From a virus, in the IMG/VR virus record IMGVR_UViG_3300032241_001747, positions 1 to 20,978 of that record: 20,978 bases of DNA; one strand, 5' to 3'. Of this stretch, positions 3,349 through 18,972 are shown piece by piece (positions within the stretch are counted from its first letter, which is position 1; the number at the start of each line of letters is the position of its first letter). Made by a program: the position numbers and the translations under genes. The notes under the pieces were generated by a model, which had not been told where the DNA came from, searched no databases, and saw only the letters and a list, made by a program, of their open reading frames with translations.

Positions 3349-6189
3349 ATGGCAAATCAAGTATTCGTTAGCCCAGGTGTTTACACATCAGAAAAAGACC
3401 TTACATTTGTAACAAGTCAAGTAGGTGTTACTACTTTGGGTTTAGTAGGTGAGACAACACAAGGACCTGCTTTTCAACCTATTTTCATAAGTGACTACAC
3501 AGGGTTTCAAACATTTTTTGGTGGTTTGGATAATACTTTGGTTACTGATCCAGATGGCTATGGTTCACCATTATATGAACTACCATATATAGCCAAATCA
3601 TATCTTTCACAATCTAATCAATTATTTGTAACTAGGGTTTTGGGTTTATCTGGATATGATGCAGGACAAGCTTGGGGTATTACTTTAAGTGCTGCTTTGG
3701 ATATTACTACAACTGCTACAACTATTTCAACTACACCAACAATTACATATTCAGCAACTAGTGGTGGAACTTTATTATCAGTAACTAGTTCTGATCCATT
3801 AATTCAATTAATGTATAATAATGGTATAATTGATTTTTCAGCATTAGCAACTGCTACTATTTCAACAACTATTAATTTCTCAGGTGTAGATAAAATTGAT
3901 ACAATATTTAGCGGGGTAAATCTTAGTGTAACTATTAGTAGCATAAATCCAAGTGGCAGTAATCCAGCTAACAATACTGGTACAACAACTTCAAGTGCTG
4001 TATATTTTTCAGGTAGTGGATATAGTGATGTTGAAAATATGGTAATTGCTTTGTTACGTTCAAGGGGAACAGTTGATACTAGTACTCAATTGCCACAGTT
4101 CCAAGTAAGTGCTTCTACTGGTTTAATTTTTGACCCAAGTGTAAATGGTGCGGCTACTAATCCTTTAGCTTACTTTAGTCTAAGTGGTTTTTCAAATACA
4201 CAGAAAGCATTTGATTATTCTTGCTCATTTGACCAAACACAAAAAAATTATATTACAAAAGTTCTTGGTACCGAAGCTCAAAATGGTAAAACAGCAATTT
4301 TTGTTGAGGAAATATATCAAAGTTTATTCAATGAATTGATGAACAATAATATGATATATGGTATAAAATTATCATTAGCTAACTATAATACCAAATTCGA
4401 TAATTACTTTCAACAATATCAAGGAGCAGTTTCTCCATATGTTGTATCGGAATTGAGAGGTAATAAACTTCTTAGATTATTTAGATTCTGGACGATTGCT
4501 GATGGTAATAGTTCAAATAATCAAATTAAAATTTCTATTCAAAATATTATTCCAGACGAATTAATTTTTGATGTAGTAATTAGAGCTTACTATGATACAG
4601 ATGCAAGTCCTGTAATTTTGGAACAATATACAAAATGTACAATGAATCCATCATCTAACAGTTATATAGCAAAACAAATTGGTACAATTGATGGTACATT
4701 TGCCTCTAAATCATCCTATGTATTACTTGAATTAGATACTAATTCAGATACAAGCGATTCATTTCCAGCTGGATTTGTTGGTTATCCTGTAAGAGATTAT
4801 ACCTCAAATAGTAATCCAACAGTAAAAGCACCAAGCATTACTTATAATTTAGCCTATGGCCCATATCAAAATCCACGTAAATATTATTTAGGTATTTCTG
4901 ATACTGTTGGTATTGATAACGCTTTCTTTGATTATAAAGGTACACAACAAAACAATGTTATATGGACTGGTTTAACAAATGGATTCCACATGGATATCGA
5001 TGCTAGTGCTGCAACAATTGATGATGTATATATTGTAATTAATTCTACAGGTGGAACATATTACCCAATATTTACTTTCGATACTGGTGTATGGCAATTT
5101 AGAACAGATGCTGGTTTAGCTAATGGACCATATGCAAATGTTAACGCTCGTAAGTTTACACTTGTTCCTTATGGAGGATTTGATGGTTGGGATATCTACA
5201 GAACAAGAAGAACCAATTTAGATGAATATGCAATAAATGGTATATTAGGACAAGCTGGTTTAACAAATGGCAGAACATTTAAAGATCGTATAACAAGTCA
5301 AGAACAATTAGGATTAAATTCTGATTATTATGCATATCTAGAGGGTATTTATACTTTCATAAATCCTGAAGAAGTAAATATTAATGTATTCTCCACACCA
5401 GGCATCGATACTCAAATTAATGGTAGCTTAGTTAATGCTGCAATTGAAATGGTTGAAATAAACAGAGCTGACTCATTATATGTTGTAACAACTCCTGATA
5501 CCGATTCAAGTGGCGCACCATTAACAGCTGCTGATGCTGTAAGTATCTTGAATGATGGACCTTATGATAGTAACTATACAGCTACTTATTGGCCATGGAT
5601 TCAAATATTGGATAGTGAAAATAACGTATATATTTATGTACCGCCTACAAGAGATGTAGTAAGAAATATCGCATTGACAGATAATATTGCATTCCCATGG
5701 TTCGCTGTGGCTGGTGTAAATAGAGGTGATGTAGATTGTATTAAGGCTAGAACTAAACTTACTTTGACTGATAGAGATACATTGTATAATGGAAGAATTA
5801 ACCCAATTGCTACATTCGCATCAAGCGGTGTTAATATATGGGGTAATAAAACACTTCAAGTTGCAGATAGCTATCTTAATCGTATCAATGTTAGAAGACT
5901 TCTTCTTCAAGCTAGAAAACTTATTTCTGCTGTTGCAATTAGATTGCTATTCGAACAGAATGATACAATTGTTAGAAATCAATTCTTGAGCCTTGTTAAC
6001 CCAATATTGGATAATATTAGAAGCGAAAGAGGTCTATCTGACTTTAGAGTTGTATTAAGTAATAGCCCAGAAGATATCGATAAAAATCAATTGACTGGTC
6101 AGATTTATTTAAAACCAACAACTGCCTTAGAGTTTATAGTCATATCATTTAATATACTCCCAGCAGGTGCAAGTTTCCAGAATATTTAA
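3349..6189 (+). CDS. Contractile tail sheath protein (T4 gp18-like)
   Basis: A 946-residue protein that forms the contractile outer tube of the tail. The N-terminus carries the sheath signature (VFVSPGVYTSEKD, followed by GLVGETTQGPAFQP and a 'Y-x-x-F-x-x-F-F-G' segment). The C-terminal ~110 residues match the conserved polymerising end: NINVRRLLLQARKLI, then LFEQND, then a variable strand with LTGQIYLKP and an aliphatic last strand. T4 gp18 is 659 aa, so this one is clearly longer. The extra length appears to be mainly a Thr/Ser/Gly-rich beta insertion near residues 115-290, which would face outward, plus extra mid-protein beta domains. The ATG is the first codon of the signature, so the start is secure. 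It has its own upstream motif and a perfect terminator after it, consistent with a high-copy structural gene. The tail tube gene lies about 6.8 kb downstream rather than adjacent. Confidence 0.95.
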   Translation: MANQVFVSPGVYTSEKDLTFVTSQVGVTTLGLVGETTQGPAFQPIFISDYTGFQTFFGGLDNTLVTDPDGYGSPLYELPYIAKSYLSQSNQLFVTRVLGLSGYDAGQAWGITLSAALDITTTATTISTTPTITYSATSGGTLLSVTSSDPLIQLMYNNGIIDFSALATATISTTINFSGVDKIDTIFSGVNLSVTISSINPSGSNPANNTGTTTSSAVYFSGSGYSDVENMVIALLRSRGTVDTSTQLPQFQVSASTGLIFDPSVNGAATNPLAYFSLSGFSNTQKAFDYSCSFDQTQKNYITKVLGTEAQNGKTAIFVEEIYQSLFNELMNNNMIYGIKLSLANYNTKFDNYFQQYQGAVSPYVVSELRGNKLLRLFRFWTIADGNSSNNQIKISIQNIIPDELIFDVVIRAYYDTDASPVILEQYTKCTMNPSSNSYIAKQIGTIDGTFASKSSYVLLELDTNSDTSDSFPAGFVGYPVRDYTSNSNPTVKAPSITYNLAYGPYQNPRKYYLGISDTVGIDNAFFDYKGTQQNNVIWTGLTNGFHMDIDASAATIDDVYIVINSTGGTYYPIFTFDTGVWQFRTDAGLANGPYANVNARKFTLVPYGGFDGWDIYRTRRTNLDEYAINGILGQAGLTNGRTFKDRITSQEQLGLNSDYYAYLEGIYTFINPEEVNINVFSTPGIDTQINGSLVNAAIEMVEINRADSLYVVTTPDTDSSGAPLTAADAVSILNDGPYDSNYTATYWPWIQILDSENNVYIYVPPTRDVVRNIALTDNIAFPWFAVAGVNRGDVDCIKARTKLTLTDRDTLYNGRINPIATFASSGVNIWGNKTLQVADSYLNRINVRRLLLQARKLISAVAIRLLFEQNDTIVRNQFLSLVNPILDNIRSERGLSDFRVVLSNSPEDIDKNQLTGQIYLKPTTALEFIVISFNILPAGASFQNI

Positions 6190-6207: not shown

Positions 6208-6237
6208 AAAACCCTTGATTAATCAAGGGTTTTTTTA
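6208..6237. terminator. Bidirectional palindromic terminator, sheath / endonuclease
   Basis: ACCCTTGATTAATCAAGGGT (6211-6230) is a perfect palindrome extended by AAA/TTT on its sides. It has a T run on the + side and an A run (T run for the - strand) on the other, so it can stop both convergent transcripts. The stop codon of the minus-strand gene (6219-6221) lies inside it. Confidence 0.9.
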
Positions 6238-8018
6238 TATACTATTGTACCGCAATCATAGATTCTATATATGCCACGTTCAATCATAATTTCATGTTCT
6301 GTTTTATTTGAATCAAACCCCTTTTTGACTAATATTGATTTTCTAAAGCCAAATCTATGTTTTCTTTTACGTCCAATAATATACCAATAGTTTGGATCTG
6401 ATTCATGAGTTTTAATAAATTTTAATTTTTCATATAAATTTCCAATGCTCCATCTTTTATCAGCGTAACTTATTATTGTTTTTGGAAAATACATTTTAAT
6501 AAAATATTTGAATAATTTATCAGCAGCACCAATAACAATTCTATCTAATTTATTACAGAATCTTAACAATTCATAATCATTTGAGCTACCGCCCATTGCG
6601 ATTCTACCCCTTCCAAAAGTCATGAGGCTAACTAGCTCATCATTATAATATAATCCAATTTTTATACTTGAATTAACATGTCCTTGTAAATGATTAGAAT
6701 TTAAAAAATTTTTTGATTCATCTATTGAAATTTCTTTTATAATACATTTCCTTGCATATATTTTATTAGTAGTTAATCCGAGTATATTTCTTAATCTACT
6801 TTTTACGATATTTTTTGTATTTAACCATTCATCTTCAAATATATGTATTAATTGAATTCCCCTTTCTTGACATAAATTTGTTTTATTAAGATGATAATTT
6901 GATGGTTTATTTATTTCACTATGCCAATACAGGCCATTATATTCTATTGCAATATTTTTTGATGGAATGTATATGTCTAATTCTAACGGAGGTATTATTT
7001 TTTTTGAATTTTCAATAATTTCAATGTTTAATGAAGTTATAAATTCCTTTAATTCATTTTCAACTTTATCATATTTTAAAGAACATTTTGGGCATCCGCA
7101 ACCCTGTAAATGTGAATCAGGGACTTGTTGAAATTCGCCATGCTCTGGGCAATTTATTAATATTTTATCTTTACAATTGGTATAATTTATATTAGAATAA
7201 TCATATTTATCTCCATGAATTTCTTTTGCCGCATTAATAAATTCTTCAGTAGTTTTAGTTTTCTTTTCAGTTATTGAAAGTCCTTTACATTTTGGGCATC
7301 CTTGGCCTTGTAAATGTGCACTTGGCATTTGATTAAATGTGCCATGTAATAAACATATTATATCAATTTTTGTTGTTGAATCAATATAATTAACTAGAGA
7401 ATAATCGTATTTATTTCCATGAATTTCTTTTGCCTCATTGATATACTCTTCATTTGTTTTATTTAATCCATGACATTTTGGACATTCGTGACCATTTTTA
7501 TGTGTATTGAATGTTTGTTCAAATATTCCGTGTTTTGGACAAATAATTTTTATTGGTGTTTGTGGATTAATATAATTAACTAACGAGTAGTCATATTTAT
7601 TATTATGTTTTTTACTTAAGATATTAATAATATCGTCATTTTTTTTATTCCTTCCATAACACATTGGACAATTAGAACCATTCATATGTATTTTTGCCAC
7701 TTGTTCAAATATGCCATGTATTGGGCAAATAATTTTAACATTTGAATTATTATTGATATATAAGACTTGTGAATAATCATATTTATCGCCATGAATTTCT
7801 TTAGATTTTTTAATAAAATCATCAATAGTTAATTTATAATTATTAGAGCATTTTGGACAACCCTGTTTTCTATTAATATGTTTATCTGGAGTTTGTTCAA
7901 AAACGCCATGTTCGGGACATATTATATTAATTTTTGCTTTATTGTTTATATATATGACTTTAGAATAATCATATTTATTTCCATGTATTTTTCTCGCTTT
8001 TTCTATAAATTTTTCCAT
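6219..8018 (-). CDS. Free-standing homing endonuclease with five Cys/His treble-clef-like repeats
   Basis: A 599-residue protein. Five repeats of about 56 residues lie at roughly 3-57, 65-120, 127-182, 189-244 and 257-312. Each reads 'A-x-x-I-H-G-x-K-Y-D-Y-S ... I-I-C-P-x-H-G-x-F-x-Q ... H ... G-C-P-K-C', a DUF723-type zinc-binding DNA-recognition unit; repeat 4 has CLLHG in place of CPxHG. The nuclease domain follows: [20 protein letters not shown] (about 346-365) with likely catalytic D348 and E359, then IHIFEDEW and IYARKC. The C-terminal part (LMTFGRGR, ISYADKRWS, RIYDCGT) matches Hef-like phage endonucleases. It probably cuts phage DNA lacking the gene and so spreads itself. It is antiparallel to all structural genes around it. 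Its last codons (K-K-T-L-D-stop) are formed by the sheath terminator palindrome. All core residues are present, so it looks intact. Confidence 0.9.
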   Translation of the reverse strand: MEKFIEKARKIHGNKYDYSKVIYINNKAKINIICPEHGVFEQTPDKHINRKQGCPKCSNNYKLTIDDFIKKSKEIHGDKYDYSQVLYINNNSNVKIICPIHGIFEQVAKIHMNGSNCPMCYGRNKKNDDIINILSKKHNNKYDYSLVNYINPQTPIKIICPKHGIFEQTFNTHKNGHECPKCHGLNKTNEEYINEAKEIHGNKYDYSLVNYIDSTTKIDIICLLHGTFNQMPSAHLQGQGCPKCKGLSITEKKTKTTEEFINAAKEIHGDKYDYSNINYTNCKDKILINCPEHGEFQQVPDSHLQGCGCPKCSLKYDKVENELKEFITSLNIEIIENSKKIIPPLELDIYIPSKNIAIEYNGLYWHSEINKPSNYHLNKTNLCQERGIQLIHIFEDEWLNTKNIVKSRLRNILGLTTNKIYARKCIIKEISIDESKNFLNSNHLQGHVNSSIKIGLYYNDELVSLMTFGRGRIAMGGSSNDYELLRFCNKLDRIVIGAADKLFKYFIKMYFPKTIISYADKRWSIGNLYEKLKFIKTHESDPNYWYIIGRKRKHRFGFRKSILVKKGFDSNKTEHEIMIERGIYRIYDCGTIVYKKTLD

Positions 8019-8139: not shown

Positions 8140-8598
8140 ATGACTAAATTAATAATAACAGAATCTCAATATAATAGACTTTTTAATGAAGACATTGATC
8201 CTTCCGAAGCCTATCGTGATGAGAATGGTATTGAAGCTGTAATAAATGGTAGAAGAAATGTCGGTTTTTTAGCTGTAAGAGATTACAATAAAAATCTTAT
8301 AAAAAACATAAAAGAAGCAAATCTAAAAATAATAAAATTAATACAAGATAATAGCCCAGATAAATACTCATTAATTTTTTTTCGTAGTGGACATGAAAAT
8401 CAGGCTTTAGAATTGGCGATAATTGCTAAAAAATATGATGGTTATTTACCAGCTAGTCCAGATCAAGGAATAACTGCTGATGAAGTATATAAAATAGGCC
8501 GATTATTAGGCTATTATAGAGATAAAGTTATTGAATTTGTATGTAATAAGTTTAATTTACGTCCAGACTATTTCAAAAATAAAAATATTTATAAATAA
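8140..8598 (+). CDS. Protein of unknown function with an ITESQ-type N-terminal peptide
   Basis: A 152-residue protein that I do not recognise. It begins MTKLIITESQYNRLFNE, which aligns with the start of the next gene ([17 protein letters not shown]: shared M1, K3, I5, I6, Q10, N16, E17). The body is mixed alpha/beta with a buried strand (YSLIFFRSG), a helix (ENQALELAIIAKKYDGYLP) and a C-terminal helical part (DEVYKIGRLLGYYRDKVIEF). The 'Y-K-I-G-R-L-L-G-Y' stretch looks conserved-type but I cannot attach a family. There is no signal peptide or membrane helix. It is 11 bases from the next gene and probably expressed with it. The position between sheath and tube suggests a virion-associated or tail-assembly role; this is inference only. 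Confidence 0.72.
   Translation: MTKLIITESQYNRLFNEDIDPSEAYRDENGIEAVINGRRNVGFLAVRDYNKNLIKNIKEANLKIIKLIQDNSPDKYSLIFFRSGHENQALELAIIAKKYDGYLPASPDQGITADEVYKIGRLLGYYRDKVIEFVCNKFNLRPDYFKNKNIYK
8584..8594 (+). promoter_or_regulatory. Candidate phage late-promoter motif
   Basis: AATATTTATAA spans the last codons of the 152-aa gene, with the end of TATTTATA 16 bases before the ATG at 8610. It would give the 878-aa gene its own transcript in addition to read-through. Confidence 0.35.
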
Positions 8599-8609
8599 TA
8601 ATTGTATTC

Positions 8610-11246
8610 ATGGCAAAAGTAATAATAAATAAAGAACAACATTTGTTAATAATAAATGAAATTATTAAAGAAATGAGTAATATTGAAACTATAAATGAAG
8701 AAATAATTAGTGAAGGAATATGGGAAAAAATTAAATATAATTTATCAAAATTAGGTAGATATAAAGCTGGTGGAAAAATATTAGGAAAAGGACAGATAGA
8801 CGCTGATGCTAAGGCTAAAATTGAAGCCATTTTAGATAAAAAAGGTAATGAAGTTATAAAAAATCTTGATAATACTGTTAAGACTTCAAATCCAGAATTT
8901 CCAAATAACGAAAAAGGCACAGAATTTTTAAGTACAATAATGAGCATATCAGCGGTATATGATTCAATTATTGCTGCTACTCAAAAAAATCAAGAAGATA
9001 AAGATTATTTACCAATAGATGCTGCTAATTCTATTATAAACGATTTAAGAGAATATGTTAAAAAATTTTTAGATATTGATTTGACTGCGGCTTATTCAGT
9101 CGTAGATGAAGCTGAGGGTAATACATTAAATATATCCGAAGAAGAACTAAATAAATTTAATGAACATTGGAATTCTATTGAAGAAGCAGCGTATATAGAG
9201 AAACCAGAAGATCGTAGCAGAAAAGAATTTGATAGGGGTGGTGCTCATGTAGTAATTCCAAAAGAAAATCCTACTAATTCTAATACTGATACAGATTTGG
9301 ATGCTGGTGATGTTAGAAAAAGTCTACAGGCTAAGAGAGGAGGCGGACCTGAATTTGATAGTGAGAGAATGAAAACATTGAAATCCAATAAATTACCAGC
9401 TATGATGGCTTCTGTTGGTAGCGCTCTTGGTGGCCTTAGTTGGTTAGTAAATACAGCATGGTTTAAGCATTTATTTGATACGACTATTACTCAAACAGAT
9501 CCAGTAACTATTAAAAATACAATAGAACAACAGACACAAATATTTAGACAAATAAAACCAAATGAAGGCGTATATAAATTTGTTGGTCATTTTACGGGAC
9601 ATCATTTAGATGCTCATTCAAAACCAAGTGATTTCATCAATGCTTTAAAACAAATAAGCGGTAGTAATGATCCACATAAAGGTGTTGAATTGCTATGTCA
9701 AAAAGGCGGTATAATGATGAGACCTGATGAGGCTAAAGCTGGTTTGGATCAATTTTTGGCTAACCCAAATAAATATCATAATTTAAATGATTTATTTAGC
9801 CATGATGCTGCTACTGGTACTGGTAAATTAGGTCCTGTAGATACCACATTATATGGTACAAAAGTCGGAACAAATATGAGTGGTTTTATTACTCAAGTTT
9901 TAATAAAAACAGTAACTAAATTTATAACAACTACAACTGTTAAAACTGGTGCTGGTTATTTAGTTGCTAAAGGATTAGGATCTGTTTTAGGACCAATAGG
10001 TATAACTTTAATTGCTAGTGGAGCTTTAGTGAAATTAATGAGAATGAAAGGCCAAAAACAATCTAGAGCTAAGACATTAAATGATTTATATCAATCAATT
10101 AGGAATATAGAGGGTGGTGCAATCGTTGAACCAGAGGGTGAAGTAATTAATTCAAAAGAAGCACAAAATCCAGAAACAATAGATAATAAAAATACTGAAA
10201 CTAAAAACGTTCCACGTGGAACAAATGCCGAAAAAGGTGGTCCTACAGATAATTCTGATTTATATAATTCAATTAAAAATTTATTCAAATTTGTCGTATC
10301 AAATAAAGAAAAAGTAGGAAATATTGTATATGGCGGTAAAAGTTTCAATCAGGGTGATAAAGTAACGTGGACTAATAAAAATGGTAAAAAAATTGAGGCA
10401 GTCGTAGTAGGGAAATCTAAAAATCCAGACGATACAATTGTTCAAATATCTGGTCAACAAGGTACTACTGCTGTTAGTACAGATAAATTAAACGCATTAA
10501 GTGAAAACATATTAAATGAGGCCAAATATTTTAAAGATGTACAGACTTATAAAATTTTAACACAACAATTTGGTGGTTCTGATACTATGATTAAATCGTT
10601 TGAAGAATTGTTATATATGGTTCAAATGTTAATATATAAAATTTCAAAATTTGAGACTAATGATAAAATATTATTGGATAAATTAAATCAGTTAAAGCGG
10701 AATCCAATTATGGTGACTAATTTTCAAAAAATGTTTAATATACCTTCTGATAACACTAAATTAACCGAATCATTAAAATCTTTTATAGTTAACATATTAA
10801 AAACAATATATAGTGGAAACTTTAAATATGGTAATATGATTGATAAACTCATAAAACTAGGTGGAGATATTGAAAAACTTGAAGAAGCTGATAATAGAAA
10901 TCAAGAATTTATTAAATCTGGACAGGATAGAGGAAAATTTAAAACAAATCTTTTAAACTTTATGGTAAGTTTAATTGGAATTTTTCAATACCTAAATAAA
11001 ATACAAAATAATCAAACCAATAATAAAACTAATAATAAACAATCAAAAGGAGATTTAAAATATAATAACCAAAAAGTAACTCTTGTACAACCACCTAATA
11101 TAGAGTTAGAACCTGGTAATGTTGAAATTAGATTACCAAACGGTAATGAAACACAGGTTAAAAAAGATGAAGTTGATAACTTGCAAGAAATAAAAAGAAT
11201 TAATGAAGAAATAAAAAGAATAAAAAATTTAATGTTAATTAAATGA
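8610..11246 (+). CDS. Large virion-associated protein of unknown function
   Basis: An 878-residue protein of unrecognised family. It opens with the leader-like peptide shared with the 152-aa gene ([17 protein letters not shown]), followed by an acidic linker ending in IISEG (residues 32-36), which fits the T4-type prohead protease pattern (L/I)-x-E before a small residue. A basic segment follows ([19 protein letters not shown], 38-56). Hydrophobic stretches lie at about 262-285 and 446-477 (a Gly/Ala/Leu-rich pair of possible membrane-active helices, [18 protein letters not shown]). An SH3/KOW-like module lies at about 572-627 ([20 protein letters not shown]) and a similar one near 825-868. 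The remaining C-terminal half is helical and Lys/Asn-rich. This mix would suit an internal or ejected virion protein, but that is inference. The stop is TGA; the last 12 bases overlap the end of the convergent endonuclease gene. Confidence 0.7.
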
Positions 11247-12860
11247 TTTTTTATATGTGATTGTACCACAATCATATATTCTGTATATTCCACGTTTTAA
11301 CATTATTTCATGTTCAGACATATTATTTATTTCTTTTAATTTTTGTTTTCTAAAATTAAATCTATGAATTCTATTTTTTCCAACTATATAACTATAATTT
11401 GGTTTATTGGTATGCATTCTAATAAATTTTAATTTATTATATAAATCACCAGTACTCCATCTTCTATCGGCATAACTTATAATTTGTTTTGGTTTATAAT
11501 TCCTAATAAAATACTGTAATAATTTATCAGCGCCTCCAATTACATTTAAATTTAATTTAGTACAAAATCTAGTTAATTCATATCCATCATGCTTCTGGCC
11601 AATCCCTAATCTTGATCGCCCAAAGGTCATAATACTAACTAATTCATCATTATAATATAATCCAAGTCTTACACTTGAATTAACAAACCCTTGAATATGA
11701 TTAGTGTTTAAAAACTCTTTACTGTTTTTACTATTAACTTCTTTAATTATACATTTTCTTGCATATATTTTATTATTCGTTAATCTAAGGATATTTCTTA
11801 ATCTGCTTTTAACAATATCTTGTTTATAAATCCACTCATCTTCAAATATATGTATTAATTGAATTCCTTTTTCTTGACATAATTTTGTCTTATTTAAATG
11901 ATAATTCTTATCTATAAACTCCTCAGAATGCCAATATAACCCATTATATTCAATAGCAATATTATGACTTGGGATATAGATATCTAATTGATGTGGCTTA
12001 ATAATAGACATTGATGAGCATATAGTATCTACTCCAAGTGATTCTATAAAATTATTAATTTGAATTTCATCGTTTGATATTGATGATGTACATTTATTAC
12101 ATCCATGTCCTGCAATGTGATCATATGGTAATTGTTCAAATATCCCATGTTCAGGGCATATTATTTTAATCTTTGTTGTTGAGTTTATATAATTAACTAA
12201 TGAATAATCATATTTATTATTATGTTTTTTTATAGCCTCAGAAATAAATGTCTCTTTATTTTTTGTTAATTTATTAGTACGTACTTCTATTCCACATTTA
12301 ACACAACCCCTACCTCTTAAATGTGAATACGGTAATTGTTCAAACATTCCATGAGTAGGACATATAATTTTAACAGGCGTTTTAGCATTAACATAATTAA
12401 TTAACGAATAATTATATTTATTACCATGTGTCTTTTTTGATTTATTTATAAAATCATCAATTGTATCAGGTATATTATTTTTCCCAAAAAAACATTTTCT
12501 ACATCCTTGTTTTTTAATATGATTAATAGGTAATTGTTCAAACACTCCATGTATAGGACATATTATTTTAACTTTTGTTGATGAGTTAATAAAATTAACT
12601 AATGAATAATCATATTTATCACCATGTATTTCTTTTGCTCTAATTATAAAACTATCATAACTGTTTAATAAATTTTTGCATTCATTACATGCTTTTCTAC
12701 CTCTTAAATGTTCAGCTGGCGATTGTTCAAAAATTATATTATGTCTATTACATTTTATTTTTATTTTTTTAGAACTACTCTCATAATCCATTAATGAATA
12801 ATCATAATCATCACCAAATTTACCTATTGCTTTATTTTTAAAAATTTCACCATTATTCAT
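11235..12860 (-). CDS. Free-standing homing endonuclease with four Cys/His repeats (paralogue)
   Basis: A 541-residue protein when started at the ATG 12860; the frame also extends to a TTG at 12914, but those 18 residues cover the candidate promoter and lack repeat similarity. Four repeats lie at about 5-61, 69-123, 136-189 and 203-257. Repeat 1 is divergent ([13 protein letters not shown]) but keeps its Cys and His. The nuclease core is [20 protein letters not shown] with likely catalytic D293 and E304, followed by [23 protein letters not shown] and RIYDCGT. The C-terminal half is clearly homologous to the enzyme at 6219-8018, which has five repeats. Different repeat number and sequence imply a different DNA target, while the cutting domain is shared. 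It is antiparallel to its neighbours, its 3' end overlaps the 878-aa gene by 12 bases, and it looks intact. It presumably invades the sheath-to-tube interval in related phages. Confidence 0.9.
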
Positions 12861-12911
12861 TTTTTTTTTATTTTTCACATATTTATTAGAAAGTATATTA
12901 TATTTTATACA

Positions 12912-12919
12912 CAAATATA
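12912..12919 (-). promoter_or_regulatory. Bacteroidetes-type -7 element of the endonuclease gene
   Basis: On the minus strand this is TATATTTG, matching the TAnnTTTG consensus of Bacteroidetes housekeeping promoters, 51 bases before the ATG at 12860. No TTG is found at the 20-base spacing; the nearest upstream TTG is 28 bases away, so the match is partial. Confidence 0.4.
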
Positions 12920-12957: not shown

Positions 12958-13446
12958 ATGGCAGACTTACTCATGAAAATGCCCTTACCGTACGAACCTA
13001 AAAGGAAAAATAGATGGCTAATAACATTTCCTAGTGATTTGGGTATTCAACAGTGGTGGCTATCAACAGCTTCAAGACCATCAATAACTCAAGCTGAGAC
13101 TGAAATTCAATTTTTAAATACATCTACATGGGTTATTGGTAGATTTACTTGGGAGACTATTGATGTAACATTCAGAGACCCAATTGGACCTTCAGCCGCC
13201 CAAGCTATTATGGAATGGGTACGTTTACATTCAGAATCTATTACTGGTAGACAGGGATATGCTGCAGGTTATAAAAGACCTGTTGAACTTGAGATGCTTG
13301 ATCCAACTGGTGTAGTTGTTGAAAAATGGCTATTAGATGGTACAATGTTAACTAATGTTGGATTTGGAGATTTGGGTATGGATGATGATGGTATTGCAGA
13401 AATTACTGCAACATTAAGATTTGATCGTGCAATACTCTTGTTTTAG
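12958..13446 (+). CDS. Tail tube protein (T4 gp19-like)
   Basis: A 162-residue protein; T4 gp19 is 163 aa. It polymerises into the rigid inner tube through which DNA passes, surrounded by the sheath. The sequence shows the family layout: N-terminal proline-rich entry (MPLPYEPKRKNRWLITFPSD), a strand with aromatic end (WWLSTASRPSI), the loop-plus-strand TWVIGRFTWETIDVTFRDPI, the helix AQAIMEWVRLHSES, the strand region VELEMLDPTGVVVEKWLLDG, and a last pair of strands with an acidic turn (GDLGMDDDGIAEITATLRFD). The ATG is the first in the frame and has an A-rich leader with no Shine-Dalgarno sequence. It stands alone between two endonuclease genes. Its upstream leader (12921-12957) is nearly pure A/T and lacks a clear TATTTATA motif. 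The stop is TAG. Confidence 0.93.
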   Translation: MADLLMKMPLPYEPKRKNRWLITFPSDLGIQQWWLSTASRPSITQAETEIQFLNTSTWVIGRFTWETIDVTFRDPIGPSAAQAIMEWVRLHSESITGRQGYAAGYKRPVELEMLDPTGVVVEKWLLDGTMLTNVGFGDLGMDDDGIAEITATLRFDRAILLF

Positions 13447-13574: not shown

Positions 13575-14465
13575 ATGTTAATATGCAAAGAATGTAATAG
13601 AGAATTTGAAACAATGGATGGTTTAAGAAGACATAATGTTCAAAAACATAAAATGACAGCAGAACAAACTTATGTTAATTATGTTTTAAACGGAATAACG
13701 CCAACATGCAAATGTGGGTGTAATGAAAAGCCAAAATTTTTAGGGATTGAGCTTGGGTTTAGAGATTATAAATGGGGACATGGTGCTAGAGTTAATAATA
13801 ACTGGGGACATAATCCAGAAGTTGTTAGGAAATCGCATGAAACTCAGAAAAAGATGTATAATAATGGTGAATTAATTATATGGAATAAAGGATTAACCAT
13901 GGAGGATGAAAGAGTTAGAGATAATATTAATAAAATTATGGCTAATCCTGAACGTGGTAAAAAAATATCAGATAAATTAATTGGTATTCCAAAATCAGAA
14001 GAACACAAGAAGAAGATTAAGATTAAAGCTAAAATTAGATGGGAAAACCAAGAAGAACGAGATAAACAATCAGTTAAAAGAGTTGATTGGATGGCGGCAA
14101 ATGATTTTAAAGTTACTTCAAAATTAGAAACAATATTTAACAACCTATTAATTGATTTAGGGTTAAAAGAAAATGTTAATTATAATAGATGGCATTATGT
14201 TAAATCAATAAAAGCTTTTTATGATTTTCATATATTTGAAAAAAACATTTTAATTGAAGTTGATGGTGATTTTTGGCATTGTAATCCAAATACTAAAGAT
14301 TCAATACCAAAATACAACTCTCAAAATAAAAATTTAATAAAAGATGAAATAAAAAATAATTGGTGTAAAGAAAATAATATTAAATTATTAAGATTTTGGG
14401 AGAAAGATATAAATGAAAAACCAGAAGAAATTATTTCAATATTGAAAAAAGAATTGGGATTATAA
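13575..14465 (+). CDS. Homing endonuclease: zinc finger, NUMOD3-like motif, Vsr/PD-(D/E)XK-type nuclease
   Basis: A 296-residue protein, unrelated in architecture to the two minus-strand enzymes. Residues 4-25 form a C2H2 zinc finger (C4, C7, H20, H25). A Cys cluster follows (TCKCGCNEKPKF, 44-55). Residues 103-150 have NUMOD3-like character (WNKGLTMEDERV, then GKKISDKLIGIPKSEEHKKK), a DNA-binding module common in homing enzymes. The C-terminal ~110 residues are a Vsr/very-short-patch-like nuclease: FYDFHIFEKNILIEVDGDFW with likely catalytic D217, E228 and D230, next to H235, then a helix and LLRFWEKDI. The ATG abuts the T run of a terminator and there is no Shine-Dalgarno sequence, so translation may be weak unless a later start is used. 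The gene is bounded on both sides by similar terminator DNA, suggesting insertion with duplication of the tube gene's downstream region. Confidence 0.87.
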   Translation: MLICKECNREFETMDGLRRHNVQKHKMTAEQTYVNYVLNGITPTCKCGCNEKPKFLGIELGFRDYKWGHGARVNNNWGHNPEVVRKSHETQKKMYNNGELIIWNKGLTMEDERVRDNINKIMANPERGKKISDKLIGIPKSEEHKKKIKIKAKIRWENQEERDKQSVKRVDWMAANDFKVTSKLETIFNNLLIDLGLKENVNYNRWHYVKSIKAFYDFHIFEKNILIEVDGDFWHCNPNTKDSIPKYNSQNKNLIKDEIKNNWCKENNIKLLRFWEKDINEKPEEIISILKKELGL

Positions 14466-14675: not shown

Positions 14676-15830
14676 ATGGAAAATAGAAGACCAAATGTGT
14701 TCCCTACACAAAAAAATGATATTCCAAATACAGTAGAAGTAGAAAAAGTAGAAAAAAAAATAGTTACGGATGAAGAATATGAAGCTAAAAAAATAGAAGT
14801 AGCTAATGAAGTATATACTAATTCAATGACTGAAAGTGGTATGAATGCTGTGGAGGCTATGCGTAAAAGAACTGAGGAGCAGATAAGATTACGTGATGCT
14901 GCTCTTAAAAAAAATATTGATCAAACCAATTCATACCAGGCTCAATTCAATGACGCTAATAATAAAAAAAATAATCAGACAGAGTTAAAAAAGACTACAT
15001 TAAAAACAGATATAAAATCCCCAATAAATACATTAAACATACCAAACTTAAATATGAATACAATTGATCCATACATTCAACAATTGAGTCAGCCTCAATT
15101 TAATACAGCTTTTGATGTAATTCCTTTACCATCTGAGGGTAAATTATATAAGAATAAAAAATCAGGAGTTAAAGTAGCGTATATGACTACTGCGGATGAG
15201 AATATATTAACATCACCAAATTTACTTCAGAGTGGTGAATTTTTAGAAATTTTAATTAATAGAAAATTATTGGAGCCTGATTTAAGGTATCGTGATTTAC
15301 ATATTGGTGATAGAAATGCGATAATGTTATGGCTGAGAGCTACTAGTTATGGTGAAATGTATCCAGTTACAATTTTTGATAAAGATGGTGAGCCATTTGA
15401 GACTGAATTTGATTTAAATACGCTTAAGACTAAGAAATTGGGTGCTGAGCCTGATGCTGAGGGATTATTTGATTTCTTTTTACCAATTAGTAAGAAAAAT
15501 ATTAAATTTAGATTATTGACAGTTGGGGATGCTGAGGATATTGATAAAATAATTGAGGAAGAGAAAAAAAATAATATACCAGTTAATAATACAACAACAT
15601 ATGTCTTAGAAAGACAATTGGTAGAGGTAAATGGTGATAGAAGTTTAGGGACAATTAAGAATTTTGCTCAGAATATGAGAATTGGTGATGCTAGTAAATT
15701 AAGAGATTATATTGAATCTATCGAGAGTGGTGTTGATTTAAATATTGAATTAATGACTCCCAGAGGTGAGTCAATTAAGACCTTTCTTCCGCTTAACGTC
15801 AGATTTTTTTGGCCTAAATTATCAGTATAA
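14676..15830 (+). CDS. Baseplate hub assembly protein (T4 gp26-type)
   Basis: A 384-residue protein. Residues 1-145 are a charged, Lys/Glu/Asn-rich, partly coiled-coil extension. The core (146-384) matches the T4 gp26-type phage baseplate family: a start of type 'LPSEGKLY' (IPLPSEGKLYKNK), then YMTTADENILTSPNLLQSGE, then LHIGDRNAIMLWLRATSYGE and strands ending in an acidic loop (DFFLPISKKNIKFRLLTVGD). The C-terminus is VRFFWPKLSV. T4 gp26 is 208 aa, so the core is of similar size and the N-terminal part is extra. The protein likely helps build the hub on which tube and tape measure assemble. A run of seven T at 15804-15810, six codons before the stop, could allow a shift into the downstream frame. 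Next in order are the small frame and the tape measure gene, a classic tail-assembly order. Exact T4 equivalence (gp26 versus gp51) is uncertain. Confidence 0.8.
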   Translation: MENRRPNVFPTQKNDIPNTVEVEKVEKKIVTDEEYEAKKIEVANEVYTNSMTESGMNAVEAMRKRTEEQIRLRDAALKKNIDQTNSYQAQFNDANNKKNNQTELKKTTLKTDIKSPINTLNIPNLNMNTIDPYIQQLSQPQFNTAFDVIPLPSEGKLYKNKKSGVKVAYMTTADENILTSPNLLQSGEFLEILINRKLLEPDLRYRDLHIGDRNAIMLWLRATSYGEMYPVTIFDKDGEPFETEFDLNTLKTKKLGAEPDAEGLFDFFLPISKKNIKFRLLTVGDAEDIDKIIEEEKKNNIPVNNTTTYVLERQLVEVNGDRSLGTIKNFAQNMRIGDASKLRDYIESIESGVDLNIELMTPRGESIKTFLPLNVRFFWPKLSV

Positions 15831-16074
15831 ATTATCATTATGGGAGGAAATTTATGTCTGTATTCAGCATCTTAAGATTGGGTATAATGATGTAATGATG
15901 ATGCCAACGGGTGAGAGAAGGTTCTTTTTAAGCCTTCTAATCAAAAATAAGACCCAAGAGCAGGAGAGAATGAAAGAGACAACCAAATCTACTGGTAAGG
16001 GAAAAAGAAGCTCCACGATAAGCGGAGAGGCCTTAAAATCAAAAATAAAAACTGGAGAAATTCCAATGACTTAA
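15766..16074 (+). CDS. Small tail-assembly frame overlapping the baseplate gene, no good own start
   Basis: This frame is open from 15754 and has a GTG at 15766 inside the baseplate gene. The region that looks conserved begins near 15820: LWEEIYVCIQHLKIGYND, then a MP-x-x-x-R-R-F segment (MMMPTGERRFFLSLL), then a basic tail (TGKGKRSSTISGEALKSKIK). The pattern 'helix, GY, MP, R-x-F' resembles short proteins I recall next to gp26-type genes in T4-like phages; it is not certain. The first in-frame ATG (near 15895) lies inside the conserved part, so neither ATG nor GTG gives a convincing independent start. A +1 (or -2) shift at the T7 run would fuse about 87 residues onto residue 378 of the baseplate protein, about 465 aa in all. 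The annotated start is therefore provisional. The stop overlaps the following terminator. Confidence 0.6.
   Translation: MSQLRPFFRLTSDFFGLNYQYKLSLWEEIYVCIQHLKIGYNDVMMMPTGERRFFLSLLIKNKTQEQERMKETTKSTGKGKRSSTISGEALKSKIKTGEIPMT
15804..15810 (+). other. Candidate programmed frameshift site (T7)
   Basis: In the baseplate frame the codons are AGA TTT TTT TGG; one skipped base (or a -2 slip) gives TTT TTT GGC and continues in the small frame to 16074. A -1 slip instead meets TAA within two codons. The position, just before the tape measure gene, parallels the frameshifted gene pair of many long-tailed phages. Confidence 0.45.
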
Positions 16075-16100
16075 AACCATATGAAAATATGGTTTTTTTT
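16073..16100 (+). terminator. Rho-independent terminator with GAAA tetraloop
   Basis: AAAACCATAT (16073-16082) pairs perfectly with ATATGGTTTT (16087-16096) around a GAAA loop, followed by T to 16100. The ATG at 16081 lies in this stem, which argues against it as the tape measure start. Confidence 0.9.
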
Positions 16101-16128: not shown

Positions 16129-18972
16129 ATGGCAGATGATAAAGTAAAAGCATCAAAACTTGGAGCCGATGATTTGAAAAATCTTATTGAAACAGCACAA
16201 GGAATAGAAGCCTCAGTAAAGGGTATTCATGATATACAACTATTAGATGAAAAAACTATAAAAGAAATAGTAAAAGAGTATAAAAGGCTATATGATATTA
16301 ATGTATCTATTAAACATATAACATCAGAAGAATATAAAATTAGCTCTAAAATATTAGATGATTTACATACTAGAGCTAAAATTGAAGAAGAAATTAAAAA
16401 AGATGCAAAATCTTTGGTTGGTTATATTAAACAAATTAAATCTATTAACAAAGATATTGCTGCAATTGAAGGTAAGATTTTAGAGTTACAAAAAGAAGGT
16501 GGAGACGAAAATATAAAAGCTGCTAAGAAATTAAAAGAGAAAATAAAAAAACTAGGAGAGGAAAGAGACTTAATTCAAGATACAGTAAATAAAACAAATA
16601 AATGGGGTTCTGGATTAAAATTAGCAGCCGATGCTGTTTCTGCTGTTGCTGATGGGTTAAAAAGAGGTTATGGGGCTATTAAAGATTTAGGATTATTCGA
16701 AATGGATAAGGCCATTAAAAATTCAGCCATGAGCATGGGTATTTTGCAAGGTCAATCAAAAGCATTTGCCGCCCAAATAACAGATGCCGCTAATGAAACA
16801 ATAAGTTTTGGTGTTGGAATTGAGGATATAGCAAAAATACAGAGTTCTTATAGTGATACGATGGGTAGAACAGTATTATTGGGTAAAGATGCTGCTGAAC
16901 AAATGGGTGCTATGTCAAAAGCCACTGGTTTGGGTGCTGAGGGTGCTGGTGAATTTGCTGGAAGTATGGATTCAATTGGATATTCAGCAGGACAGACGGC
17001 TGGGTATGTTGAAGATACAATGAATGACGCTCATGCCATGGGGTTAAATTCCACTAAAGTAATAAAATCTATTGCACAGAATATTAAATTATTAAATAAA
17101 TATAATTTTAAAGCTGGTGCTAAAGGATTAGCAAAAATGGTCGAAGAAACTCAAAGAATGGGTGTGAGTGTTGATCTTGTTGCTCCGATGGCTGAAAAAT
17201 TATTTAATATTGAAGGAGCTGTTGAAATGTCTGCTCAATTGCAAGTATTGGGTGGGGAATGGGCTAAATTAGGAGATCCATTTAAATTAATGTATAAAGC
17301 ACGTAATGACATGGAAGGGCTTACTAAAGATGTTATAAATGCCGCTACAGCAACTGCTCATTTTAATAAAGAAAATGGTGATTTTGAAATATCAAGTCTT
17401 GAAATGTCCAGATTAAGAGAAGTAGCTCAAGCAACTGGTTTAGATTTTACCGAATTAGCTCAAGCTGCAAAAAAAGCTGCACAATATGCTGGAATTAAAA
17501 AACAAATAAGTTATGGTTTTGATGAAAAAACTGAAAAATTCATTGAATCTACAGCAATATTAGATGAAAAAGGTAAAGCACAAATAGATGTTGATGGTAA
17601 GGGTACAAAAAAATTCTTAAGTGAATTAACAGCAGCAGATAAAGATATAATTAAAAAAAGAGCTGATGAGAAAGAATCAATGGCACAAAGAGCAAAAGAA
17701 AACCAAACATTTGATGATGCTTTAAATAATACAATTACATTGTTTAAACAAATGTTATTACCAATAGTTACGACATTAAACGAAAAGTTAATGCCAAAAG
17801 TTAAATCTTTTGTAGAAAATTTTAATAAGAAAGGTGGATGGGGAGAAAAAATTCAAGAATTTGCAAAAGTAATTGGTAGTTTAATATCAACACTTGGAGG
17901 ATGGATAATTGATAACCCAATTAAATCAGCTCTTATTTATGGCGCAGCGAAATTTACTGGTTTTTTATTTAATACTATTGAATGGGTAAAAAATGGAATC
18001 GCATTATCCGAAGGTTTTTTAGCTGGAACTGGAGGTGGTGGGTTGTTTAAAGGTATTGGTGGATTTTTGAGTAAAATGTTTGGTGGTAAGGGTGTTGGTG
18101 GTGGGTTTGGTGGTGGTGAATTGGCGCTGACAGAAGCTGGAGAAGGTGCAAATGTTAGTCAAGCAATAACTGGACAAGCAAATGCAATAGATGGGGCAGC
18201 TGTAAATTTAGCTAAAACAACAAAAATACTTGGAATGACAACTAAAACATTTACAGTTGTTGGTAGTTCACTTGCAGGATTAGTTTCGGGTATTACAACT
18301 TATTTTGAAAATAAAGATAAGGGTATGAGTACTGGTGAAAATCTTAAAAGAAGTGCAACTAGCGGTATTATTACTGGTCTTCTTTCTGCTGGATTGGGTG
18401 CAATTGGAACTGCATTACTACCAGGCATCGGAACAATGGCAGGTGTGGCTCTTGGTGGTTGGCTTGGAGATCAATTAGGCGCATCAGCAAATGATGCTAT
18501 GTATGGTAAATATGATGAAAATGAAAGAGGTGTAAATGATGGTGTTATACAATTTAATCCACGTGATAAATTCATGAAAGTAAATGATACTACTATGATT
18601 GCTGGCACAAATGAAAATGGTAATAAAGATTTAGCAAAACAATTAAGATATAAAGACGATACTAATAATATAACTACAATGAGTGGTTCTATTCCCAATA
18701 GTTATAGTCCCTCAATGTTTACTGGAAATTTAAATAAAACTTTAAATAGACCAGTAAATAATGCTATTACGCAATCACAAATACCAAGTAATCTAAATGT
18801 TAATTTTGGTCAATTAATGTTAGGTGGAAGTGTTGAATTAAAAATGGGTCAAGGTTATTCTAAAGAATTAGGTGTTCAACTTATTCATGATCCAGAATTT
18901 ATAAGAACTATGACTAAAATGATTAATATGGAAGTAAATAAAAATCTAAATGGTGGTAAACCAAAAGCATAA
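16129..18972 (+). CDS. Tail tape measure protein
   Basis: A 947-residue protein with the ATG at 16129; the earlier in-frame ATG at 16081 lies in a terminator stem and would add 16 leader-encoded residues. It spans the tube lumen during assembly and fixes tail length. Residues 1-170 are charged and coiled-coil-like. The middle is long Ala/Gly/Met-rich helix (MSMGILQGQSKAFAAQITDA, then MGAMSKATGLGAEGAGEFAG). Hydrophobic stretches lie near 591-619, 707-727 and 745-785, with a Gly-rich linker near 631-665. Near 804-827 is the typical C-terminal tape measure motif, DGVIQFNPRDKFMKVNDTTM followed by IAGTNENG. It has its own promoter-like motif and follows the gp26-type gene and the small frame, the expected tail-assembly order. 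At the usual ~0.15 nm per residue it would give a tail near 140 nm, longer than T4's; this is an estimate. No lysozyme or peptidase motif was seen. Confidence 0.9.
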   Translation: MADDKVKASKLGADDLKNLIETAQGIEASVKGIHDIQLLDEKTIKEIVKEYKRLYDINVSIKHITSEEYKISSKILDDLHTRAKIEEEIKKDAKSLVGYIKQIKSINKDIAAIEGKILELQKEGGDENIKAAKKLKEKIKKLGEERDLIQDTVNKTNKWGSGLKLAADAVSAVADGLKRGYGAIKDLGLFEMDKAIKNSAMSMGILQGQSKAFAAQITDAANETISFGVGIEDIAKIQSSYSDTMGRTVLLGKDAAEQMGAMSKATGLGAEGAGEFAGSMDSIGYSAGQTAGYVEDTMNDAHAMGLNSTKVIKSIAQNIKLLNKYNFKAGAKGLAKMVEETQRMGVSVDLVAPMAEKLFNIEGAVEMSAQLQVLGGEWAKLGDPFKLMYKARNDMEGLTKDVINAATATAHFNKENGDFEISSLEMSRLREVAQATGLDFTELAQAAKKAAQYAGIKKQISYGFDEKTEKFIESTAILDEKGKAQIDVDGKGTKKFLSELTAADKDIIKKRADEKESMAQRAKENQTFDDALNNTITLFKQMLLPIVTTLNEKLMPKVKSFVENFNKKGGWGEKIQEFAKVIGSLISTLGGWIIDNPIKSALIYGAAKFTGFLFNTIEWVKNGIALSEGFLAGTGGGGLFKGIGGFLSKMFGGKGVGGGFGGGELALTEAGEGANVSQAITGQANAIDGAAVNLAKTTKILGMTTKTFTVVGSSLAGLVSGITTYFENKDKGMSTGENLKRSATSGIITGLLSAGLGAIGTALLPGIGTMAGVALGGWLGDQLGASANDAMYGKYDENERGVNDGVIQFNPRDKFMKVNDTTMIAGTNENGNKDLAKQLRYKDDTNNITTMSGSIPNSYSPSMFTGNLNKTLNRPVNNAITQSQIPSNLNVNFGQLMLGGSVELKMGQGYSKELGVQLIHDPEFIRTMTKMINMEVNKNLNGGKPKA

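Follow-up and report, generated by a model that had tools for sequence, protein, structure and literature searches.

A frameshift in the tail chaperone genes has long been known in lambda-type phages, with a shift of −1 in lambda and −2 in Mu. The tail assembly chaperones of T4-like phages were reportedly identified in a 2022 Virology paper by Vladimirov et al. T4 itself is listed as the exception among the long-tailed phages (PMC5009743), and its gp26 and gp51 are listed as hub assembly chaperones (PMC3004832). Here we analyzed a virus record of 20,978 bases with a T4-like tail module (hereafter the window), in which a small frame overlaps the end of a gp26-type gene and lies directly before the tape measure gene, as the second frame does in pairs of the G/GT type. 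A programmed +1 frameshift is very probably the best explanation of positions 14676–16074, judging from the sequences compared below. The relevant parts of the window are as follows.

3349–6189: sheath gene of the T4-like tail module.
12958–13446: tube gene of the T4-like tail module.
14676–15830, plus strand: short form (G-like), a gp26-type tail assembly chaperone of 384 aa in frame 0 (PF12322, phrog_150, AF2, Foldseek).
15783–15786, plus strand: upstream UUU_C site (TTT CTT), where a second or alternative +1 slip may occur (conservation, synonymous resampling).
15804–15810, plus strand: T7 run, candidate slip site UUU_U in the codons TTT TTT TGG (invariance; homologous to the immuto-like slip site).
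15804–15830, plus strand: dual-coded overlap, FFWPKLSV and stop in frame 0, FFGLNYQYK in the +1 frame (translations; TTT, TTT and CCT columns invariant).
15811–16074, plus strand: putative long-form C-terminal domain (T-like) of 87 aa in the +1 frame (no stops, dN/dS, immuto-like homology, AF2).
16129–18972, plus strand: tape measure protein, likely start ATG 16129 (MADDKVKASK; phrog_167, E = 4.2e-16).

The frame-0 protein ends in FFWPKLSV at the stop codon 15828–15830, and the +1-frame ORF ends at the stop 16072–16074, after which the tape measure ORF comes next. The initial annotation had located a T7 run at 15804–15810 inside the overlap, and these positions are exact; its statement that only a +1 or −2 change fuses the two frames into a 465-aa product was reproduced from the sequence (378 + 87 residues). 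The −1 frame closes with a stop directly past the T7 run (FLA and stop), and T is encoded in the +1 frame. Conservation of the small frame, previously placed from near 15820, begins instead at the T7 run itself, with GGC at 15811. The tryptic peptides predicted to span the junction are FFGLNYQYK for a +1 shift at the T7 run, FFFGLNYQYK for a −2 shift, and LTSDFFGLNYQYK for a slip at the upstream UUU_C.

Reading from ATG 16081, the tape measure ORF is open as well. The interval from the T stop to the tape measure start holds AAACCATAT-GAAA-ATATGGTTT followed by a T run (16074–16100), a terminator-like hairpin with few G-C pairs, which was missed by the terminator scanner. Because ATG 16081 sits inside this hairpin, 16129 is the more likely start. 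In some relatives (L014, L015 and L017), another long ORF (MKLIITE.QY...) lies between T and the tape measure gene, and it resembles the start of the window ORF 8140–8598. Elsewhere in the window, two paralogous proteins with DUF723/DUF4379 zinc repeats are encoded on the minus strand between the tail genes (6219–8018 and 11235–12914); their C-terminal region weakly matches the Mom family (E = 0.0025 and 7e-6), and one of the two weakly matches a restriction-endonuclease-like domain (MTES_1575). They are possibly homing-type elements with an unusual Mom-like part. The ORF at 13575–14465, which is inserted between the tube and gp26-type genes, carries an N-terminal C2H2 finger and looks like a free-standing homing endonuclease.

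To count the junction features, we used the window together with 80 relatives (43–62% identity) found by a viral-contig scan with the gp26-type protein, which gave 81 sequences with 58 distinct contexts; the 58 distinct sequences form 36 clusters that are below 85% nucleotide identity. At the gene end, 80 of the 81 sequences carry TTTTTTTGGCCT in frame, the sole exception (L064) being cut by its contig end; the motif is found once per locus, with 58 occurrences in 472 kb of distinct loci and none elsewhere there. All relatives reaching the gene end share a common layout, with frame 0 ending in FFWP[N/D/K]... and a stop, and the +1 frame reading GLTSEYK..LLEEIYICTQ...ERRFFLG; the T7 run is invariant in every sequence of the window's clade that reaches that point. 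When the 58 distinct sequences were aligned, five of the 114 conserved degenerate codon columns held an invariant codon, and all five (CTT, CTT, TTT, TTT and CCT) are at the junction, within the last 14 frame-0 codons. Across the genes of this clade, TTT makes up 84% of the Phe codons and CTT 22% of the Leu codons. A shift-prone site with such excess nucleotide conservation is a mark of G/GT-type pairs.

A second clade of 63 distinct sequences, recovered with the hub protein of Flavobacterium phage immuto, has the same overlap, the same +1 frame and a homologous T domain (hhalign 92.7% against that of the window). The initial proposal, a programmed frameshift that makes a pair of the lambda G/GT kind ahead of the tape measure gene, thus gains strong support from two clades, in which ~120 distinct relatives share the +1 arrangement. 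The letters at the immuto-like slip site vary, being TTT TTT TGG in 31 sequences, TTT CTT TGG/TAC in 28 and TTT CTA TGG in four. The first TTT is invariant (63/63) although TTC accounts for 22% of the Phe codons, and the base 3' of it is a pyrimidine in all. In 11 sequences a +1-frame stop lies 1–3 codons before this TTT, implying that the slip would occur on or after it. The +1 arrangement is also present in the single sequences of Mel-JY01, RM378, SP-15, LIS04, GXN1 and LR756508, and the junction letters are TTT TTT TGG in Mel-JY01 and RM378 and TTC TTT C in GXN1; viral-contig scans with the SP-15 and RM378 proteins recovered only SP-15 and RM378.

The T7 run is not necessarily the sole slip site, and the upstream TTT_CTT at 15783, which is conserved too, may be another. 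A copy of the motif stands 21 bases before the T7 run (TTT CTT CCN CTT AAC NTC vs TTT TTT TGG CCT AAC NTC). As a separate observation, the tandem similarity in the window runs between TTTCTTCCNCTTAACNTC (15783–15800) and TTTTTTTGGCCTAACNTC (15804–15821), with 21 nt spacing and the same codon register, and is kept clade-wide. The upstream letters are TTT CTT in 57 of the 58 sequences. We see a somewhat less than even chance that in the window's clade the slip, still a +1 frameshift, occurs mainly at this UUU_C; if so, the invariance of the T7 run would result from dual coding, the run being kept solely by FF coding in both frames. Several results favor this. All 58 sequences keep the +1 frame open from the upstream site to the T7 run, compared with an expected 6.6 ± 2.3 (max 16) from synonymous resampling of the 58 sequences, a calculation that ignores their relatedness. 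It is open across the stretch mainly because CTT before AAC avoids a +1 TAA/TGA, and both CTT codons are invariant while the third-position C is kept in AAC and NTC. L013, the one departure from TTT CTT, reads TTC TTT C and so retains UUU_C, and TTT CTT is the same hexamer as that of the immuto-like slip site. However, the protein alignment pairs the immuto-like slip site with the T7 site as its homolog, not with the upstream site; in the immuto-like clade, +1 stops close by exclude a slip farther upstream. Several relatives also alter AAC or NTC. In the upstream stretch, either the ribosome would already be in the +1 frame via a TTT_C slip or a stimulator is present, and an RNA or nascent-peptide stimulator could explain the conservation as well.

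A Mu-like −2 slippage on the T7 run would give an identical reading frame, and the T7 run of the window re-pairs perfectly at −2 as well as at +1. In the immuto-like clade, however, a −2 re-pairing of the tRNA is impossible at the 28 TTT CTT and four TTT CTA sites, and GXN1 has TTC TTT C, which makes a −2 shift very improbable. By comparison, +1 re-pairing of tRNA-Phe (UUU to UUU or UUC) is good in all immuto-like forms, which argues for a +1 shift by P-site slippage on UUU_Y; of the two signs originally allowed, +1 is borne out and −2 is not. UUU_Y is a known +1-prone tetranucleotide, and P-site tRNA slippage on CUU_U or UUU_Y is described (PMC5009743). Slippage on CUU_U, as in RF2, would fit the immuto-like CTT sites too, but not the CTA sites. 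The variable immuto-like letters thus point to tRNA-Phe slippage on UUU_Y rather than −2 or homopolymer slippage. Transcriptional slippage in the T7 run, yielding mRNAs short of one U and needing no ribosomal shift, has in its favor a 7-base homopolymer that is invariant in the window's clade. But seven T are short for RNA polymerase slippage, and relatives with TTTCTTTGG or TTTCTATGG have no homopolymer and still keep the +1 frame, leaving this explanation only a slim chance.

The coding capacity of the second frame is clear from the window's clade, where the +1 frame past the junction has no stop in 4669 codons, against 540 and 414 stops in 4613 codons of the other two frames, and a dN/dS of ~0.28–0.36. 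As in G/GT-type pairs, the second frame is under coding selection and has no start of its own. The only candidate start in the window, GTG 15766, is not conserved, and in 14 of 58 distinct relatives a stop 8 codons ahead of the T7 run closes the +1 frame, consistent with the initial view that the small frame overlaps the gp26-type gene without a convincing start. Three relatives (L047, L060 and L081) contain no ATG, GTG or TTG ahead of the conserved core, and no conserved start codon for the small frame was found among the 58 distinct sequences. The proposed alignment of homologous loci therefore came out on the side of the frameshift, with the overlap and the slip-prone run kept and no start conserved. 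These data also bear on whether the small frame is a separate gene, expressed by re-initiation or from a non-AUG start past the stop of the first gene. The frame-0 stop is close to the small frame, and a GTG at −38 or an ATG at +58/+67 is present in some relatives; yet, besides the unconserved start, the early stops and the three start-less sequences, the conservation spans the T7 run and reaches upstream of it, which a separate start does not need, and we regard a separate gene as highly unlikely. A sequencing error or private indel, for which a homopolymer is the classic spot, is refuted by the conservation of the same junction layout in ~120 distinct sequences from independent assemblies, and its probability is close to nil. 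The alternatives first listed beside the frameshift, namely an indel, a homopolymer read error or a non-AUG start, are thus unlikely, since the junction is conserved and no start is. The comparison across relatives shows a conserved slip-prone site and a conserved +1 frame, the lack of a start and the +1 sign of the shift.

From this pattern we infer that the ribosome itself slips, by the following mechanism. Positions 14676–16074 would be one tail assembly chaperone gene with a product in two lengths. Most ribosomes would terminate at 15828–15830 and yield the 384-aa short form, like lambda gpG and T4 gp26. Near the gene end, with tRNA-Phe on UUU followed by a pyrimidine, a fraction of the ribosomes would slip one base forward, at UUU_U in the T7 run (15804), the upstream UUU_C (15783) or both sites. 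Continuing in the +1 frame, they would produce a 465-aa product extended by a helical domain, comparable to lambda gpGT and T4 gp51. By analogy, both forms would coat the tape measure protein and recruit the tube subunits. We found no convincing stimulator at the junction and no Shine-Dalgarno sequence at RF2-like spacing. Alignment folding predicted a stem around the site (TTTCTTC / GAAGAAA), with no compensatory change and only one-sided changes of the G-U type; it was not counted because the changes are one-sided and lie in protein-coding sequence.

The protein family is consistent with this assignment. The G protein matches PF12322 (31.6 bits, cut-off 24.5) and phrog_150 (E = 4.8e-9). AF2 models of G and T were made separately from plain translations. 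That of G has a pLDDT of 88, and its Foldseek matches are T4-like baseplate hub assembly proteins; in BFVD, the matches reach E = 8e-26, including the SP-15 hub (E = 1.6e-18) and T4-like hub assembly proteins (E to 4.6e-14), and the search of the PDB gave no match. In the window's clade, the gp26-type proteins are extended at the N-terminus by ~130–200 residues (MDKKPNVFPT..., Q/N-rich; 14676–15065 in the window), which T4 gp26 and the 246-aa immuto-type proteins lack. The T domain is predicted to be helical (pLDDT 81). It matches cyanophage gp51 weakly (E = 3e-5, a single comparison) and T4 gp51 weakly (hhalign 1.6%, E = 0.013), the latter collinear with the gp51 C-terminus. A tblastn search of phages with the small frame gave no match, and the fold search of T in viral models gave nothing significant, its one weak match being an Acinetobacter baseplate hub assembly catalyst. 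An identity of the small frame with DUF6760 is unsupported (E = 0.14).

T4 gp26 and gp51 are both members of PF12322/phrog_150; the end of gp26 coincides with that of the short form, and gp51 continues into an additional C-terminal segment that takes the position of T. Cyanophage gp51 is described without the first ~200 residues (PMC3037559), implying that it corresponds to the T part only. Taken together, the T4 ends and the extent of cyanophage gp51 imply that the short form is G-like and the long form GT-like. The contigs of nine relatives (137–369 kb) each contain one G and one T, both at the junction site, so the frameshift seems to be the sole route to the long form; no separate full-length long-form gene was found in these contigs, which are possibly incomplete. 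The chaperone role of both forms is suggested by homology or analogy with T4 and lambda and by gene order.

Other members of the gp26/gp51 family have the T domain in the −1 frame past six or seven consecutive T (mostly U_UUU_UUC), namely Syn9, P-SSM2, S-PM2, HTVC008M, KVP40, Aeh1, M12, Atu_ph07, PA5oct and LR756511, and TTT TTC is invariant in 74/74 distinct P-SSM2-like sequences. We also observed, in L100, L102–L107, L109, L111, L113 and L207–L286, a gp26 end on U_UUU_UUC/U with the short-gp51 T domain in −1. Neither Aeh1 nor Syn9 has an ATG near the T start; the annotated gp51 of Syn9 begins inside the T domain, and Aeh1, whose gp51 was reported missing (PMC3037559), has the T domain in the −1 frame. 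The overlap of the cyanophage/KVP40/Aeh1 type looks like a −1 frameshift within the gp26/gp51 family. Poly-T −1 signals in T4-like chaperone genes are already credited in PMC12846349 to Vladimirov et al. 2022, and the −1 form is thus not claimed as new here. The initial belief that no such frameshift had been reported for T4-type tails accordingly fails for −1 and stands for +1, as we could not find a report of a +1 version in the T4 gp26/gp51 chaperone family.

By sequence, the pair of lengths is reached in this family by three routes: a +1 shift, a −1 shift and, in T4, two genes. It is conceivable, although we lean against it, that the window's clade employs both of two tandem +1 slip sites 21 nt apart (UUU_CUU and UUU_UUU) and so produces a pair of long forms distinguished only by a 7-residue linker, and that the family changed the sign of its shift between +1 and −1, T4 having replaced the frameshift by gene duplication. 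With +1, −1 and gene duplication comparable in one family, it becomes testable whether the two lengths are conserved and not the route. T4 long stood as the exception to a tail-chaperone frameshift found in most long-tailed phages, and members of its own chaperone family would appear to use a +1 shift at a strongly conserved UUU_Y. The +1 arrangement spans phages of very distant hosts (Flavobacterium, Rhodothermus, Microcystis and Bacillus), may offer a natural case of UUU_Y +1 slippage that is deeply conserved and lacks an obvious stimulator, and shows annotators where the missing long form sits.

Compared with the known systems, the locus shares with lambda G/GT and relatives such as Mu the two overlapping frames directly before the tape measure gene and a short form and a low-copy long form, here predicted, joined near the end of the first frame. 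A fused protein of the G/GT type is characterized by a low ratio, by its absence from the virion and by binding of the tape measure and tube proteins. The likeness considered here is one of arrangement: lambda shifts by −1 and Mu by −2, whereas the window would shift by +1 on UUU_Y in a protein of the T4 gp26/gp51 family. With T4 (Straboviridae) it shares that family, but the T4 proteins come from two separate genes on opposite strands without a frameshift, whereas the frames of the window overlap. In cyanophages, KVP40, Aeh1, M12 and PA5oct, too, a frame overlapping the gp26-type gene encodes the T domain; it is −1 at U_UUU_UUC in these phages and +1 in the window. The tail chaperone frameshift of the haloarchaeal myovirus HSTV-2 is 'very likely' +1 (PMC5009743), as proposed here, and the likeness considered for this archaeal virus is in the sign of the shift. 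Slippage of the P-site tRNA by +1 is shared with prfB (RF2) and with UUU_Y sites such as YopN-TyeA (PMC5009743). RF2 requires a stop codon and a Shine-Dalgarno sequence (CUU_UGA with the Shine-Dalgarno 3 nt upstream), whereas the window site, UUU_UUU_UGG, has neither.
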